A stretch of DNA of 58,530 nt from Caldifarciminota bacterium (lineage in GTDB: Bacteria; Hydrothermota; Tepidihabitantia; Tepidihabitantales; DTDR01), in the NCBI GenBank assembly GCA_025060715.1, contig JANXBG010000007.1:1-58530 (forward strand). The letters run 5' to 3'. Below, piece after piece: positions 1 to 33,354 of this stretch. How positions within the stretch are numbered: the stretch's first letter is position 1; each line of letters opens with the position of its first letter. Under the pieces are notes generated by a model. That model was given only the letters and a program-made list of their open reading frames with translations. It made no database searches and was not told the DNA's origin. The translations under genes were made by a program, and so were the position numbers.

Positions 1-477
1 ATATTTATCAATTTACCAATCATTTAGATTTTAGCAGAGAAAGAGATAGTTATTAAAACCCAATTTAATATATATTCAAAAACTTCATTTGGGTATAATA
101 TGAATAATCTCACTTTAGAAAAATTAAAATCCTTAGGTTTAACTCATTTGGATGAAAACTCTGCTAATTTTCTAAATTGTTTATAGTTGGTAATGATTTT
201 TAAAATTGATATAAACATTTAAAGGTACGAAAATAAAAAACCTACTAAAGTAATATTTAACAAAAGAACAAATTAATTTAATTTTAAACGGGTTAAAAGG
301 ATTATAAAATCTTTGCAAAATAATCTAACCCTAATAATTATAAATAACTTATGGGAAAACAATTCACGGTATCCATTACATTCATATATTGTAGAAGTAA
401 TGGGAAAAAATAGGATATAAGTTAATACCTAAGTATTACCTTTGAATGCATTCTTGACTTTTGGAAACCACCAAAAT
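1..477. other. Gene-poor, probably decayed DNA
   Basis: No open reading frame of useful length is seen on either strand. Short coding-like stretches interrupted by stops occur on the plus strand, for example after the ATG at 101 and around 376-416. They lie just upstream of the restriction-enzyme remnant, so they could be relics of a partner methyltransferase. I cannot recognise any methyltransferase motif, so this is only a positional guess. Confidence 0.35.
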
Positions 478-5303: not shown

Positions 5304-7774
5304 TTTATCGCTCCTTTTAAATAAATAATTTTTTTGAAATTTTTATCTTTTTTTACAAAATAAATCCCTGTCCTTAAATTCTTTTTATAAATCTTTCCAA
5401 TTACAGAAAAAATTTCTTCCTCTTTAAAATCTAATTTAGAAATAATTTTTGTTTTTTTAATATCTTCTAAAAAAAGATAATTTTTCTTCACAATCTTAGC
5501 ATAAACATCCCATCCTTTATGTCTTCTATTATCAATCCAAGAGAAACAGAGAAAATTATTTATTGAAGAAATACTTTGAGATAAAATCCATTGGTTATTT
5601 CCAAAAAACCAATCAGGCTCATGAACCAACCGATTATTACTAATCTTATTACCAAAATAATCAAACCTTTGAGCATAAACATCCACATCACCATATCCTT
5701 TTCTAAAATCACAAAAAGTAATTACAAACTCACCATCAGCAGTAAAACTTATTGATGGAGAATATTGATCATATACGGTATGATCATCATTTACCAATAT
5801 ATTTCTACCAATCCTCTCACCATTAATTTTAAAAATTTGACAATAAATATCAGTATTACCGTTTCTTTCATCTTCCCAACTAACTACAATTATTGAATCC
5901 TTAAAAGCACAAGTAGGATAACCTTGAAAATTATTTGTTATATCATTTACTAAAATACTAGGATTATTGCCAATTTTTAAATAAATATTATATTCACCTA
6001 AACGATTATCCATCCAAGTAAATATTGGCAAAGTATCAGCAAAAGTTATAAATCCATATAATGCGTCCCCTTCATTATTATCACTTATTTTAAAATTATT
6101 ACCAATTTTATTTCCTAAGGAATCAAAAAATTGTCCATATATTGCGCCATTTTCTTCCCTGTGATCAGTCCAAATCACTAAAAATTTCCCTGTGGAAGAA
6201 CTTGCCACAATAGGCCAATCTTGAAAATTGTTATTAGTATCATCATTTATTTTAAAATTCCTACCAATTAAATTTCCAAAAGGGGTTATTATTTGACCAT
6301 AAATATCCGTGTTTCCTTTTCTCAAGGATAACCAAGCAACAAGAGCTTTATTATAGCAGTTTAATCCGAAGGATGGAAAAAAATTATAACTAACTTCACT
6401 TATTTTTTTATTGGGAATTAAAAAATTTCCTAAGGTGTCAAAAAAAGTTGCATAAATATGACACTCTTCTTTCCGCTCATCTTCCCAACAGATTCCAAAG
6501 AATTGTTGATTAGCAGAAATAAAGGGACATCTTTGATGAGAAGAAGCATAATCATTATTGATTTTAAAATTGTTACCAATTTTTATATTATTTTCATCAT
6601 AAAACTGGGCATAAATATCATCGTTTCCTTCTCTTTTATCTTGCCATAAAATTAGATGAGAATTGTTAGAAAGGGAAACAACCCAAGGAGAATTTTGAGA
6701 CAAATTAGACAAGTCATCATTAACTAATTCATTATTTCCAATTCTTATTCCTTCTTGGGTTAATCGTTGTTTATAAATATCCCAATTGCCTCTTCTTTCA
6801 CAACTAAAAGCGATAATGAAATTTCCTAAAGTGTCAGCGGAACAGCTCGGTGAATTTTGATTTGCTAATGTATTATCATCGTTGATAAGAAAATTATTAC
6901 CTATTCTTCGGTTTAAGGAATCAAAAATTTGGGCGTAGATATCCCAATTGCCATTCCTTTCATCTTCCCAGACTACTAACCAATAATTATTTTTGTTTAC
7001 GTAAATTCTTGGAGAAAATTGCCAGGCAGAAGTATTATCGTCATTAATTTTAAAATTATTGCCAATACGATTTCCATAAAAATCAAAAATCTGACAGTAT
7101 ATATCCCAATTACCATTTCTCCCATCCTCCCAAAGGATTATAAATTGACCATTACTTTTTACCCCAATGCTTGCTGAATATTGCCAAGCAAATCCGATAG
7201 GATCATCATTAACTCGTAAATTATTACCTATTTTATTACCATTTTCGTCAAAAATTTGTAGATAAATATCTCCATAATCATTTCGCCAATCTTCCCAAAC
7301 GATTACAAATTTTCTATTTGGTAGGAAGGCTATTGATACCCCTCTTTGGTCTTGGGAAGTATTGTCATCATTTGCTTTCCGATTATTGAAAAGCCTGTTT
7401 CCTAAAGAATCATAAATTTGATAATAAATATCAGAATTACAATTTCTTCTATCTTCCCAAGCAACCGCAATTCGGTTATCAAAAAACGCAACTGCTGGTT
7501 CACCTTTCCATCTTAAACCTCCATCATCACTTACCCTTTCTTCTTCCATTAATCTTTGACCATTCAAATTAAGAATTAAAAAGTAGGGAGAGGAGTTGCC
7601 ATCTCGGAAATCACTAAAGGTAATTGCTATTCTTCCTCCCCAGGAGATACCTTTTGGTAGTTCCTGAGTTGCGCCACCTATATTATCATCGTTTATCAAA
7701 AAATCATTTCTAATAATTGAATCCCTTATCTCTCCTTTCAAGTATAAAATTAATAAAATTAACAAAAGTCTCAT
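5300..7774 (-). CDS. Secreted WEDxRNGxxDIY repeat protein with C-terminal sorting-like tail
   Basis: This 824-residue exported protein has a short signal peptide (MRLLLILLILYL). It is then built of about 13 units of roughly 55 residues following the pattern WEDxRxGxxDIYxQIFD, xGNxIGNNFKINDD. Each unit looks like four strands and suggests beta-propeller-like folding. The units are divergent rather than recent copies. The C-terminus (GKIYKKNLRTGIYFVKKDK and onward) matches the last strands of T9SS-type sorting domains but lacks their full Ig-like part. It overlaps both neighbours by 4 bases. A role in surface adhesion or binding is plausible but not shown. The Asp/Asn-rich loops could bind calcium. 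Confidence 0.75.
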   Translation of the reverse strand: MRLLLILLILYLKGEIRDSIIRNDFLINDDNIGGATQELPKGISWGGRIAITFSDFRDGNSSPYFLILNLNGQRLMEEERVSDDGGLRWKGEPAVAFFDNRIAVAWEDRRNCNSDIYYQIYDSLGNRLFNNRKANDDNTSQDQRGVSIAFLPNRKFVIVWEDWRNDYGDIYLQIFDENGNKIGNNLRVNDDPIGFAWQYSASIGVKSNGQFIILWEDGRNGNWDIYCQIFDFYGNRIGNNFKINDDNTSAWQFSPRIYVNKNNYWLVVWEDERNGNWDIYAQIFDSLNRRIGNNFLINDDNTLANQNSPSCSADTLGNFIIAFSCERRGNWDIYKQRLTQEGIRIGNNELVNDDLSNLSQNSPWVVSLSNNSHLILWQDKREGNDDIYAQFYDENNIKIGNNFKINNDYASSHQRCPFISANQQFFGICWEDERKEECHIYATFFDTLGNFLIPNKKISEVSYNFFPSFGLNCYNKALVAWLSLRKGNTDIYGQIITPFGNLIGRNFKINDDTNNNFQDWPIVASSSTGKFLVIWTDHREENGAIYGQFFDSLGNKIGNNFKISDNNEGDALYGFITFADTLPIFTWMDNRLGEYNIYLKIGNNPSILVNDITNNFQGYPTCAFKDSIIVVSWEDERNGNTDIYCQIFKINGERIGRNILVNDDHTVYDQYSPSISFTADGEFVITFCDFRKGYGDVDVYAQRFDYFGNKISNNRLVHEPDWFFGNNQWILSQSISSINNFLCFSWIDNRRHKGWDVYAKIVKKNYLFLEDIKKTKIISKLDFKEEEIFSVIGKIYKKNLRTGIYFVKKDKNFKKIIYLKGAIK
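5930..7700 (-). repeat. Tandem protein-coding repeats of about 165 bp
   Basis: Recurring DNA blocks encode the DIYxQIFDxxGNxIGNNFxINDD unit. Near-identical short words recur in the plus strand, such as the stretch encoding IGNNF and the ATCATC stretch encoding NDD. Spacing between units is about 150-170 bases and several units are degenerate. This is an internal gene repeat, not a mobile element. Confidence 0.7.
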
Positions 7775-10700
7775 TTCACAATGCCAAATTTATAGTATCT
7801 TACTTCTTTTGTATCAGAAAAACTAATTTCTAATTTTAAAAGATAAACACCGCTTTTAAACTTTTTAATATCAATCTCATATTCATTATCAATCACTTTT
7901 ATGTTCTTTATTTTTCTTTCTAATAATTTCTTAAAGGAGAAATCATAAATTTCAATTTTTGCTTCAATCGCTTCTTTTGTGGTTTTAAATCGTAAATATC
8001 CTCTTTGGTCATTGATTGTAATCGGATTAGGATAAACATAAAAATAATTGATAAGAGATTTATTAGAAATTGCCTCTTTTTCTAATTTTTTTAAAATTCT
8101 TCCATCCCTTTCGGTTGTTGATAATTTTGTCTGCCAAAATATATCTTTCTCTTTTCCAAAAGTATTATATACATATAAATATCTATCCTCAGTAGTTAAA
8201 ATTAATTCAATCAAGGAATCATTATCTAAATCGGTAATAAAAGGAACAGTTTTTATTCCTCCGGTAGTAAATAATCTTTGCTGATTATTTATAGAAACAC
8301 CAAAATTCGGAAGACCAGCAAAGATATCGCAAATTTCGTTACCATCAAAATCACCGATAATTGGCGAAGTATAAAAATAAAAGGGTATTTCTTCATAAAA
8401 AAGATAGCCGTTTAAAATTATTTCTTTAAGATAAATAGAATCAAAAATAATTGGAAAGTTTTCGATTAAGGTAAGATTATAATTAAAAGCAAAAATTTTA
8501 TTTTTGCTGAAAGTTATAATATCATAATTTTTATCGTTGTTCACATCACCAATTGCTATATAAGAAAAAGCAGGATATTCCATAATTTCTTTGGAAGAAT
8601 ACTTAATATCTCCTTCCGGAGAGATAATAAATAATTTATAATTTAAGTTAATGGGAACTAATAAAAGAATCTCTTTATTTTTATCATTATCAAAATCAAA
8701 AACTATTGGAGAAGAAGGAGAAGAAAAAGGAGAATAGGAGAGAGAAATTGGAAAACCATTTTTCATTCTTCCTTCAAAAGATACCAAATGCAATTGATTA
8801 TTATCAGTAAGAATAACAATGTAAGAATCACAAATAGCCGGTGTTAATTTTATTTTTCCGATAAGTTTTATTGGAAAATTCTCTTTTATTCTTCCTTCCC
8901 CATTAATTATATATAAATATCCTTTTTCTGTTCCAACAATGATTTCTTTTTTGTTATTATTATCGATATCATATAGCAATACTTCGCTTTTTATTTCACC
9001 ATTTAAAAACAGATCAAAGAGGACATTACCAAAAGCATCAATAACAACTATTCGTTCGTAGGAAATAACCACAATTTCTAACATACTATCACCCGTAATA
9101 TCACCTATAGATAAATCTGAGGTTATCTCTAAAGGTAATTGACAAAGAATTTCATATCCCAAATAAGGTTCTCCATTGGGTTCGTAAGCATAAATTATTC
9201 CCGTTGAGCAAGGAACAATTACTTCTTTTATTCCATCACAATTTAAGTCCTTTCCTAAAGGAGATAATAAAGGTTCGGAAAAATTTCTTATCAATTCCTT
9301 CTTTAACAATTTGTTTTTAAAAGAAAAATACATAATTGTTTCTGGTTCAGAATGGATATAAAATTGGTAATAAGTTTTCCCATAATAACCATCGCTACTA
9401 GGAGAAGTATTTTCGGTTAGGCTATCTAAAAAACCGCCTTTAAAAAAAGGGTCATATTTAGAACCGACCATCTCATAATAATCTTGATAAATAAATTTAT
9501 CAAAATCCTGAATTCCGTCAGCTTCTACTAAATCAACCCCTTTATGAGAAGGATTGATATTTATGGCATTATAGGGTCCGTATTCCCTAATTATTTTTTC
9601 ATCAATATGCCAGATTAAAATTCCGCTTCCAGCCAGGAAAAAATCATATTCACCGTCTTCAACACCAATAACAACCCCATTTTCTCTTTTAACAACAATC
9701 GTATCTTTTTTACGTATATCTGTTTGACGATTTTCAATCAAAAAATATTCATCTTCAGAAATAGGAATTTTATAAATAAAAGTTAAAGTTTCTCTTTCAG
9801 AAAATAATAAAGAGTCCATACACATTGTAAAACAAGCCAAATTATTAGTTGATAAATTAACAACTTTGGGTTCTACAAAACCAAATAAAATTTTATGAAA
9901 AGGATCAAGAGAAGAAGGAATTGTTCCTGGTGGGCAATCATGACTACCAAGCCAACCGCCATATCCCATTAAACTCCAGCCACCAACTCCCATAGAATGC
10001 CCGGTAACGTCATATAAATCATAACCACCGAGAGGATGAACAAACTCATGGGCAAGAAGCCCCAGCATCCCCATCATTCCGTAATAATTAATCCCTCCTT
10101 CATATAAAGTATCCTGCCTTGTCATTTCGGGCAAAATACAGGCAATATCAATTCTTTTTTTACCATTGTCAACTTCAATATAGGGTTTTCCTAAATAATA
10201 TTCTAAGGCTTCACTGTTAATTGTGGCTGCCCATAAATCAAAAGGCGAATTTTCTTTTATATCAGTTTGGGCACAAGAGCCAGCATGAAAAATTATAAAA
10301 TAGTCATAATCACTAAAATTAATATTAGTATCTTGGTCAGCAATAGTAAAAGCATCTTCCATTAATCGACACAATCCCATTTCTACTCCCCGAAAATCGT
10401 AATTGGGCCATTTCCACATAGTATCACCATAATATTTCATTTCGTATGGTAATTGATAGGCATCTAAAACTCCCTCTGGCATTACTTTAAATTCAATATG
10501 AAGCTTTCCTAAGGAATTATGCCAAAAATAATTTCTTAGTCCTAATAAAAGATTTTCAAAATATTTCTTAGTATGGGGAGGGTCATAATAAAGTCCATCT
10601 TCTTCGGTTAAAAATCCTTTTAAATCCATTTTTCCATTTCCAGTAGTTAAAGTATCGTTATCTTCTTTAAATTCTACTCTAATTGCTAATACTCTTATCG

Positions 10701-10884
10701 TATCAATATTTCTTTTATTTAAAGCAAGTTTTTTGGGTAATGAATATATATTTTTATTTCTTCTTGATTTATACAAGGAAAATCTTTTTATTATTTTGGA
10801 ATAAAAATTTGTTTCTCTAAAATTCTCTTTTCTTTTTAATGTAAGAGTTTGACCGAAAATTAAATTAAAGATAAAAAAAATGAT
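7771..10884 (-). CDS. Secreted M6-family metalloprotease with FG-GAP-like repeats and sorting tail
   Basis: This is a secreted zinc protease of about 1,037 residues. The zinc site is HEFVH within LLAHEFVHPLGGYDLYD, characteristic of the immune-inhibitor-A (M6) family. The C-terminal half carries several D-x-[DN]-x-[DN]-x-x-x-[DE]-I repeats (DLNCDGIKEVIV, DIDNNNKKEIIV, DFDNDKNKEILL, DFDGNEICDIFA, DLDNDSLIELIL), as in FG-GAP/VCBS calcium-binding propeller blades. The last about 90 residues (VYPNPI onward, ending with SGVYLLKLE and KFGIVK) form a T9SS-type sorting domain. The frame is open through the upstream tRNA-Ser to an ATG at 10998, but that extension is tRNA sequence. The signal peptide (FFIFNLIFGQ) begins right after the tRNA, where only ATC (10884) or ATT (10881) can be starts. 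Confidence 0.82.
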   Translation of the reverse strand: MIFFIFNLIFGQTLTLKRKENFRETNFYSKIIKRFSLYKSRRNKNIYSLPKKLALNKRNIDTIRVLAIRVEFKEDNDTLTTGNGKMDLKGFLTEEDGLYYDPPHTKKYFENLLLGLRNYFWHNSLGKLHIEFKVMPEGVLDAYQLPYEMKYYGDTMWKWPNYDFRGVEMGLCRLMEDAFTIADQDTNINFSDYDYFIIFHAGSCAQTDIKENSPFDLWAATINSEALEYYLGKPYIEVDNGKKRIDIACILPEMTRQDTLYEGGINYYGMMGMLGLLAHEFVHPLGGYDLYDVTGHSMGVGGWSLMGYGGWLGSHDCPPGTIPSSLDPFHKILFGFVEPKVVNLSTNNLACFTMCMDSLLFSERETLTFIYKIPISEDEYFLIENRQTDIRKKDTIVVKRENGVVIGVEDGEYDFFLAGSGILIWHIDEKIIREYGPYNAININPSHKGVDLVEADGIQDFDKFIYQDYYEMVGSKYDPFFKGGFLDSLTENTSPSSDGYYGKTYYQFYIHSEPETIMYFSFKNKLLKKELIRNFSEPLLSPLGKDLNCDGIKEVIVPCSTGIIYAYEPNGEPYLGYEILCQLPLEITSDLSIGDITGDSMLEIVVISYERIVVIDAFGNVLFDLFLNGEIKSEVLLYDIDNNNKKEIIVGTEKGYLYIINGEGRIKENFPIKLIGKIKLTPAICDSYIVILTDNNQLHLVSFEGRMKNGFPISLSYSPFSSPSSPIVFDFDNDKNKEILLLVPINLNYKLFIISPEGDIKYSSKEIMEYPAFSYIAIGDVNNDKNYDIITFSKNKIFAFNYNLTLIENFPIIFDSIYLKEIILNGYLFYEEIPFYFYTSPIIGDFDGNEICDIFAGLPNFGVSINNQQRLFTTGGIKTVPFITDLDNDSLIELILTTEDRYLYVYNTFGKEKDIFWQTKLSTTERDGRILKKLEKEAISNKSLINYFYVYPNPITINDQRGYLRFKTTKEAIEAKIEIYDFSFKKLLERKIKNIKVIDNEYEIDIKKFKSGVYLLKLEISFSDTKEVRYYKFGIVK

Positions 10885-10890
10885 AAAAAG

Positions 10891-10979
10891 CGGAGAGGGA
10901 GGGATTCGAACCCCCGACCCACTTTTAAGTGGGTTCGCGATTTCGAGTCGCGCGCCTTCGTCCACTCGGCCACCTCTCC
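10891..10979 (-). tRNA. tRNA-Ser(CGA)
   Basis: On the minus strand this reads GGAGAGGTGGCCGAGTGG at the 5' end. It has a CGCGA/TCGCG anticodon stem around loop CTCGAAA (anticodon CGA), a long variable arm (AACCCACTTAAAAGTGGGT), GGTTCGAATCC in the T arm, a CCTCTCC acceptor 3' strand and discriminator G. Length is 89 nt and CCA is not encoded. It lies between tadA and the M6 protease gene in the same direction, 15 bases after the tadA stop. Confidence 0.96.
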
Positions 10980-10994
10980 TATTTAATCTTATTT

Positions 10995-11444
10995 TCATTT
11001 TCTCTTCTTTTCAAAAAACTTTTTTAACAAAAATTTTGTTTCTTCCTCTTTTATTCCACTAATTACCTCAACTTTTCCCTTAATAGAATTATAAAATTCA
11101 GGGTAATTTGAAAAAAAGCCAAACTTTTCTTCTTTAGTTCCGTATACAATTCTTTTTATTCTTGCTAATAATATTGCTCCCATACACATCAAACAAGGTT
11201 CACAAGTGATATAAATAGTAGCTCCTTTTAATCGCCAATCTTTTAAATAATTACTGGCAGAAGAGAGTGCAATTATTTCTGCATGGGCAGTGGGATCTTT
11301 TAGTTTTTCTACCTGATTATGTCCTCTACCAATAATTTTATTTTTATGAACTATTACCGCACCTATTGGTACCTCATTTTCTTTTAAAGCAAGCTCTGCT
11401 TCTTTTATTGCTTCTTCCATAAAAGAAATGTCTAAAAATTTCAT
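10995..11444 (-). CDS. tadA: tRNA(adenine34) deaminase TadA
   Basis: This 149-residue zinc deaminase converts A34 to inosine in tRNA-Arg(ACG). The catalytic HAE (TAHAEIIAL, zinc His and proton-shuttling Glu) and the PCxxC zinc motif (CEPCLMCMGAIL) are present. So is the N-terminal VPIGAVIVHKNKIIGRGHN signature. Length is typical. It begins only 8 bases after the 3' end of tRNA-Arg(ACG), its known bacterial substrate, with no Shine-Dalgarno site. It is followed by tRNA-Ser(CGA). The tRNA-enzyme-tRNA arrangement strongly suggests one transcript. Confidence 0.93.
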   Translation of the reverse strand: MKFLDISFMEEAIKEAELALKENEVPIGAVIVHKNKIIGRGHNQVEKLKDPTAHAEIIALSSASNYLKDWRLKGATIYITCEPCLMCMGAILLARIKRIVYGTKEEKFGFFSNYPEFYNSIKGKVEVISGIKEEETKFLLKKFFEKKRK

Positions 11445-11452
11445 AAAATCTA

Positions 11453-11526
11453 TGCGCCCGAGAGGACTCGAACCTCCAGCCTACGGATTCGTAGTCCGTC
11501 GCTCTCTCCAATTGAGCTACGGGCGC
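11453..11526 (-). tRNA. tRNA-Arg(ACG)
   Basis: The minus strand reads GCGCCCGTAGCTCAATTGG, anticodon stem ACGGA/TCCGT around CTACGAA (anticodon ACG), T arm GGTTCGAGTCC, acceptor 3' strand CGGGCGC and discriminator A. Length is 74 nt with no encoded CCA. A34 is the wobble base that TadA converts to inosine, and tadA follows directly. Confidence 0.96.
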
Positions 11527-11541
11527 ATTTTTTTAACTATT

Positions 11542-11569
11542 ATTTTACTTAATAATCCTAATTTTTCAA
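11542..11569 (-). promoter_or_regulatory. Promoter for tRNA-Arg(ACG)-tadA unit
   Basis: On the minus strand: TTGAAA (11569-11564), a 16-bp spacer and TAAAAT (11547-11542), with the tRNA 5' end 15 bases beyond the -10 box. This probably drives the long unit that runs down to the RlmD-like gene. Confidence 0.5.
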
Positions 11570-33049: not shown

Positions 33050-33063
33050 ACTATTTTTTACTC

Positions 33064-33137
33064 TGCCCCTGGTGAGATTCGAACTCACGGCCTACAGTTT
33101 AGGAAACTGTCGCTCTTTCCAACTGAGCTACAGGGGC
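33064..33137 (-). tRNA. tRNA-Arg(CCU)
   Basis: The minus strand reads GCCCCTGTAGCTCAGTTGG, anticodon stem ACAGT/ACTGT around TTCCTAA (anticodon CCT), T arm GAGTTCGAATCTC, acceptor CAGGGGC and discriminator A. It is 74 nt with no CCA. It is the last tRNA before the YfgM-like gene. Confidence 0.96.
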
Positions 33138-33150
33138 ATTTTTAAACCTA

Positions 33151-33245
33151 CGGAGAGGGTGGGATTCGAACCCACGGTCCATCCTTTTAGGGATGGACTT
33201 CCGCTTAGCAAGCGGATGCCTTAGACCAATCTCGGCCACCTCTCC
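33151..33245 (-). tRNA. tRNA-Ser(GCU)
   Basis: The minus strand reads GGAGAGGTGGCCGAGATTGG, anticodon stem TCCGC/GCGGA around TTGCTAA (anticodon GCT), a long variable arm (GTCCATCCC/GGGATGGAC type), T arm GGGTTCGAATCCC and acceptor CCTCTCC. Discriminator G, 95 nt, no CCA. Confidence 0.96.
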
Positions 33246-33249
33246 AAGA

Positions 33250-33336
33250 CGGAGGGTGAGGGATTTGAACCCCCATGTCGCTTTTCGCGACGGCGGATTT
33301 CAAGTCCGCTGCCTTACCAGATTAGGCTAACCCTCC
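33250..33336 (-). tRNA. tRNA-Ser(UGA)
   Basis: The minus strand reads GGAGGGTTAGCCTAATCTGG, anticodon stem GCGGA/TCCGC around CTTGAAA (anticodon TGA), a long variable arm (GTCGCGAAAAGCGAC), T arm GGGTTCAAATCCC and acceptor ACCCTCC. Discriminator G, 87 nt, no CCA. It is the first gene of the tRNA cluster. Confidence 0.96.
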
Positions 33337-33354
33337 AAAAATTTTACTATAATA

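Follow-up and report, generated by a model that had tools for sequence, protein, structure and literature searches.

The deaminase gene tadA between arginine and serine tRNA genes in WOR-3 bacteria: a probable tRNA-punctuated operon

Mixed tRNA-protein operons and the tadA locus

Operons that combine tRNA genes with protein-coding genes are already known, and the locus described here is best viewed as akin, in a new form, to one of them: the thrU-tyrU-glyT-thrT-tufB operon of Escherichia coli, in which tRNA genes lie directly 5' of, and in line with, the gene for a protein that handles those tRNAs. In the E. coli region metY-rimP-nusA-infB, the initiator tRNA likewise precedes translation-factor genes, including that of IF2, the user of that tRNA, although this region contains no modification enzyme and, in the stretch shown, no tRNA 3' of its coding genes. 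A third E. coli cluster, serV-argVYZQ, joins Ser(GCU) to Arg(ACG), as does the Bacillota cluster described below, but is without tadA; the latter is flanked by mltF and pgpC, at a distance of about 120 kb. Finally, in animal mitochondrial transcripts the messages lie between tRNAs, their ends are set by tRNA excision and their leaders are near zero. A search of the open literature, with subscription papers outside its reach, returned no described tadA-tRNA operon, and the form presented here is apparently undescribed in that literature.

The window, i.e., the whole stretch of 58,530 nucleotides that was analysed, comes from a WOR-3 bacterium with a draft genome of ~1.6 Mb in 86 contigs; a WOR-3 genome is among its nearest named relatives. 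On the minus strand, a promoter-like site, tRNA-Arg(ACG), 8 nt, tadA, 15 nt, tRNA-Ser(CGA) and an M6-like gene follow each other in this order, and another tRNA cluster is found elsewhere in the window:

11542..11569, minus strand: promoter-like site TTGAAA-16-TAAAAT, 15 nt 5' of tRNA-Arg (enrichment across 57 loci)
11453..11526, minus strand: tRNA-Arg(ACG) (ARAGORN; Rfam, 71.5 bits; aligned with relatives)
11445..11452, minus strand: 8-nt gap TAGATTTT between tRNA-Arg and tadA (sequence)
10995..11444, minus strand: tadA, predicted tRNA adenosine(34) deaminase, 149 aa, ATG at 11444 (ORF; domain, family and structure matches)
10980..10994, minus strand: 15-nt gap from the tadA stop to tRNA-Ser
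10891..10979, minus strand: tRNA-Ser(CGA), third member of the cassette (ARAGORN, Rfam; kept in 57 of 70 WOR-3 loci)
7771..10998, minus strand: M6-like protein with type IX secretion system (T9SS) sorting, frame open back through tRNA-Ser (ORF; domain and family matches)
33063..33337, minus strand: Ser(TGA)-Ser(GCT)-Arg(CCT) tRNA cluster (tRNA search; order as upstream of Bacillota tadA)

A sequence-only reading of this DNA had placed tRNA-Arg(ACG) 8 nt before tadA on the same strand, and this placement is correct (tRNA at 11526-11453, ATG at 11444); tRNA-Ser(CGA) does not appear in that reading. The corresponding distance in E. coli tRNA-tufB is 114 nt, and the tadA locus further differs from the tufB operon in that TadA acts on only one of its tRNAs and in that tadA lies between two tRNAs. 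With the mitochondrial transcripts it shares a message enclosed by tRNAs, but in a bacterial genome and with an excision that is here a predicted one. The host genome also carries, on its contig 24 (L319), the conserved tRNAs Thr(TGT)-Tyr-Gly-Thr(GGT), with tuf 57 nt downstream of them and tRNA-Trp next in line. The TPR gene 5' of the cassette points the opposite way and is kept only within the genus. The Rfam search found no signal recognition particle RNA in the window; among the 14 genomes looked up, Dictyoglomus has this RNA close 3' of tadA.

The tadA ORF matches the Pfam family MafB19-deam (3e-36), and TadA is its best curated family with 131.4 bits (RibD comes next with 46). The equivalog cut-off of 150 set for NF008113 is not reached; the name TadA is nevertheless retained, because this cut-off is an annotation rule and not a biochemical feature, and A34-to-I34 activity is predicted. 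The closest solved structure is B. subtilis TadA (7cph), the zinc deaminase motifs HAE and PCxxC are present, and H54, E56, C84, C87 and N43 are invariant across the loci of 66 relatives. The enzyme and its substrate occur in the same genome: the anticodon loop of tRNA-Arg(ACG), CUACGAA, includes the UACG motif edited by TadA, and this tRNA, in which CCA is not encoded, is the sole ACG tRNA among the matches of the tRNA-Arg model, which also include Arg(TCG), Arg(CCG), Arg(TCT) and Arg(CCT).

Conservation of the cassette and the identity of its neighbours

The sample comprised 70 tadA loci of the WOR-3 phylum, with tRNAs counted within 500 nt on the same strand, and 30 loci from each of several other phyla, for which the best-scoring loci were taken, so that these samples lean towards relatives of the query. 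In WOR-3, Arg(ACG) lies 5' of tadA in 57 of 70 loci and Ser(CGA) 3' of it in 57 of 70; two of the 13 loci without Arg are cut by contig ends, which leaves 57 of 68 informative loci, in 14 of 20 families. The Arg(ACG)-tadA pairing thus recurs among relatives, and it is found in two other phyla. Closeness by chance in a compact genome would agree with the fact that 8 nt is not unusual in the window, where tRNA-Arg(CCT) at 33063 is followed by a TPR-like ORF ~13 nt later; this explanation is, for practical purposes, refuted by the fact that the pairing recurs in three phyla and, within WOR-3, in 14 families.

Beyond WOR-3, Omnitrophota have Arg(ACG) 5' of tadA in 19 of 30 loci and Ser(GCT) or Ser(GGA) 3' of it in 21. 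The Clostridia-type Bacillota (Tissierella phylum, 30 loci) carry a longer cluster, with Arg(CCT) (21 loci), Arg(ACG) (16), Ser(GCT) (13) and Ser(TGA) (10) upstream and Ser(CGA) (26) and Ser(GGA) (20) downstream, the nearest tRNA 5' of tadA usually being Arg(CCT). In the deltaproteobacterial phylum (30 loci) only Ser lies beside tadA, with no Arg upstream, and in Bacteroidota (30 loci) Arg(TCG) or Arg(ACG) lies by tadA in four and three loci, respectively. None of the 30 pseudomonadotal loci has a tRNA 5' of tadA, and one has a Ser pair. The link between tadA and the tRNAs is therefore dispensable, as tadA stands alone in the WOR-3 families f7, f11, f16 and f19 and in E. coli, and the pseudomonadotal loci are free of upstream tRNAs.

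The simplest order common to these loci is Ser(TGA)-Ser(GCT)-Arg(ACG)-Arg(CCT)-tadA-Ser(CGA)-Ser(GGA), so that, on sequence comparison, a cluster of Ser and Arg tRNAs is the older arrangement. The Ser(TGA)-Ser(GCT)-Arg(CCT) tRNAs at 33337-33063 are likely the detached half of this old cluster, since they retain the order found upstream of Bacillota tadA. The TadA tree, although poorly resolved, groups mostly by phylum (12 phylum changes over 220 rows, with a minimum of 5); it gives no indication of a recent spread of the cassette between phyla and makes vertical descent likely.

Considered from the point of view of the enzyme, selection might hold tadA next to tRNA-Arg(ACG) in order to fix the ratio of deaminase to substrate, perhaps with feedback through tRNA processing or through TadA that binds the tRNA portion of the transcript from which its own message is made. 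In WOR-3 and Omnitrophota, Arg(ACG) is indeed the one tRNA that has remained immediately 5' of tadA, whereas Arg(CCT), Ser(GCT) and Ser(TGA) are found elsewhere (at 33 kb in the window), and the ratio of TadA to tRNA-Arg2 matters in E. coli, where extra tRNA-Arg2 reduces editing and this tRNA competes with mRNAs for TadA (PMC13170351). However, tRNA-Ser, which is not a known TadA substrate, is kept equally often (57 and 57 of 70), and either neighbour can go first when the trio breaks, families f14 and f25 having kept Arg and lost Ser, and f18 and f21 having kept Ser and lost Arg. Moreover, in Bacillota another Arg tRNA, usually Arg(CCT), intervenes nearest to tadA, and B. subtilis has its four Arg(ACG) genes in other tRNA clusters and a dispensable yaaJ (PMC10454642). 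Specific coupling of enzyme and substrate thus appears rather unlikely as the main explanation, and the enzyme-substrate reading of the pairing applies partly at most.

Genomes that lack tadA bear on the same question. The 14 WOR-3 genomes without a TadA match are also without detectable Arg(ACG) and Ser(CGA). Their joint loss with tadA was considered and rejected, as the full tRNA lists of G043 and G047 lack other needed tRNAs as well (CGU/CGC and AGA are without a tRNA in G047, and the G043 list comes to only 30 tRNAs), which makes assembly gaps the likelier cause of the tadA absences; for G081 and G062, truncation at contig ends is evident. G043 and G047 are single-contig drafts rated 93-96% complete, yet with several needed tRNAs absent they appear incomplete. 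The only likely case of a true loss of inosine decoding among the 14 is family f23 (G089 and G093), in which there is no TadA match and tRNA-Arg(GCG) replaces Arg(ACG), as coupling of enzyme and substrate would lead one to expect.

Promoter placement and the predicted ends of the tadA message

Promoter-like sites were scored as the best TTGACA-16..18-TATAAT match in the 70 nt 5' of an element, out of a maximum of 12, and compared with dinucleotide shuffles. Before the WOR-3 tRNA-Arg, the mean best score is 9.5 against 6.1 in the shuffles, with 77% of 57 loci at p<=0.1, and where the score reaches at least 9 the -10 box lies 7-24 nt 5' of the tRNA. Sites of at least 9 precede the first tRNA in 79% of WOR-3 loci, tadA close behind a tRNA (within 40 nt) in 0% and the downstream tRNA in 9%; the Bacillota values are 73%, 0% and 11%. 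For tadA close behind a tRNA the mean score is slightly above that of its shuffles, though none of the loci reaches 9, and tRNA-Ser downstream of tadA shows no enrichment in WOR-3. The same scoring found no promoter enrichment in Omnitrophota, perhaps reflecting other promoter types there. In the window, the gap TAGATTTT is too short to hold a promoter. It is nevertheless important to mention that 23 WOR-3 loci with a gap of at least 70 nt show a weak signal before tadA (22% at >=9, p=0.014), so that families with a long gap may have a second promoter there.

The locus therefore shows the features expected of a mixed tRNA-protein operon, namely tight spacing on one strand (8 and 15 nt) and, in short-gap WOR-3 loci and in Bacillota, a promoter before the first tRNA with none before the gene. 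Because promoter-like sites are enriched before the first tRNA and not before a close tadA or the downstream tRNA, the joint transcription of tRNA-Arg, tadA and tRNA-Ser is well supported at the sequence level. The single apparent promoter of the sequence-only reading is thus recovered in TTGAAA-16-TAAAAT, a separate tadA promoter inside the tRNA was sought and left no site of at least 9 in short-gap loci, and promoter placement, spacing and conservation all support enzyme and substrate sharing a transcript. The possible dosage link proposed on this basis fares well as far as common strand, single promoter and deep conservation are concerned; its specificity for enzyme and substrate does not, since tRNA-Ser(CGA) is tied to tadA equally often.

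At the 5' junction, tRNA-Arg-tadA gaps, counted from the first residue as placed by alignment, range from -1 to 437 nt and measure at most 25 nt in 28 of 57 WOR-3 loci. In the predicted fold of the precursor, the tadA ATG is unpaired and directly follows the tRNA acceptor stem. The window gap has no Shine-Dalgarno sequence, and few of the loci have one before tadA. Its absence was considered as a sign of special translation of tadA and rejected, 44 of 54 ORFs in the window having none at their first start. At the 3' junction, the tadA stop falls within tRNA-Ser in 15 of 106 loci (among them L014, L022, L025, L097, L098, L108, L121 and L168) and at most 20 nt before it in 37 more. Eight of the stop-in-tRNA loci (seven from WOR-3, one from Bacillota) share the ending FFxxRRDG*, the last residues being encoded by the first bases of tRNA-Ser; judging from these positions, cleavage by RNase P would remove the tadA stop codon. 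This layout is compatible with a tRNA-punctuated mRNA whose ends would be made by RNase Z and RNase P at the predicted cuts.

Junctions of this kind also bear on the possibility that the neighbourhood is a neutral relic, an old Ser/Arg cluster inherited together with a promoterless tadA that cannot easily leave, its neighbours having no regulatory meaning. An order common to several phyla would be expected from such a relic, as would the retention in E. coli of serV(GCU) beside argV(ACG) without tadA and the survival of the Ser(CGA)-M6 pairing in four genomes that have tadA elsewhere. On the other hand, the trio has outlasted at least one neighbour, the upstream TPR gene, and in several lineages the gaps are tight and stop codons lie inside tRNA-Ser, so that a purely neutral relic is conceivable but unlikely.

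The downstream gene and the meaning of the arrangement

The M6-like protein carries a type IX sorting tail, and its gene lies 3' of tRNA-Ser in 40 of 71 WOR-3 loci. In the window and in both other genomes of the genus (L411 and L412), neither ATG nor GTG nor TTG occurs in frame in the stretch that separates tRNA-Ser from the signal-peptide core. Instead, the frame stays open across the entire tRNA-Ser as far back as an ATG sharing bases with the tadA stop codon (ATGA at 10998-10995 in the window) and lying 19, 13 and 10 nt 5' of tRNA-Ser in the three genomes, the lengths differing and the frame remaining the same; the number of genomes is small, and the frame would be preserved by chance with a probability of about 1 in 9. 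Substitution rates (dN about 0.1, dS about 0.8-1.0) show that strong purifying selection acts on the M6 gene. An alternative start candidate is a GTG within tRNA-Ser, 7 nt after GGAGAGG, the gene may also use a rare start codon 3' of tRNA-Ser, and other families include several loci in which an ordinary start codon of the M6 gene follows tRNA-Ser. Maturation of the tRNAs could then act as a switch for the proteins of the operon: cutting of tRNA-Arg would free a nearly leaderless tadA message, cutting of tRNA-Ser would trim its end and in some families remove the stop, and in this genus M6 would be translated through tRNA-Ser from the stop-overlapping ATG or the internal GTG, so that one transcript would yield either mature tRNA-Ser or M6 protein. 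Such a switch seems rather improbable.

The explanation we favour, and consider probable, is that an ancient, tRNA-punctuated Ser/Arg tRNA operon has tadA as its protein-coding member, is read from one promoter before tRNA-Arg and ties TadA output to tRNA synthesis. From the adjacency, its conservation and the position of the single promoter, all three seen in the sequence, we infer the cutting, the near-leaderless translation and the benefit. In the lineage of the window, the operon would have been reduced to tRNA-Arg(ACG)-tadA-tRNA-Ser(CGA), often with the M6-like gene after it, and the whole transcript would start from one promoter 5' of tRNA-Arg. The tadA message would then be cut out by RNase Z, acting on the 3' side of tRNA-Arg, and by RNase P, acting on the 5' side of tRNA-Ser, with 8 nt before its start codon and about 15 nt after its stop codon. 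As one promoter and tRNA excision would together make this message, the amount of TadA would follow both the transcription of the one tRNA that it edits and the growth-dependent synthesis of tRNAs.

If this is true, the cell would set the level of its only A-to-I tRNA editor directly through the synthesis of the substrate. Such a coupling would matter in view of the competition between tRNA-Arg2 and mRNAs for TadA in E. coli (PMC13170351). The full tadA tRNA cluster is carried by culturable Bacillota. Bacteria would, moreover, have an equivalent of the tRNA punctuation known from mitochondria, perhaps a very ancient one, and in it some stop codons, and possibly a start region as well, would lie within tRNA genes.
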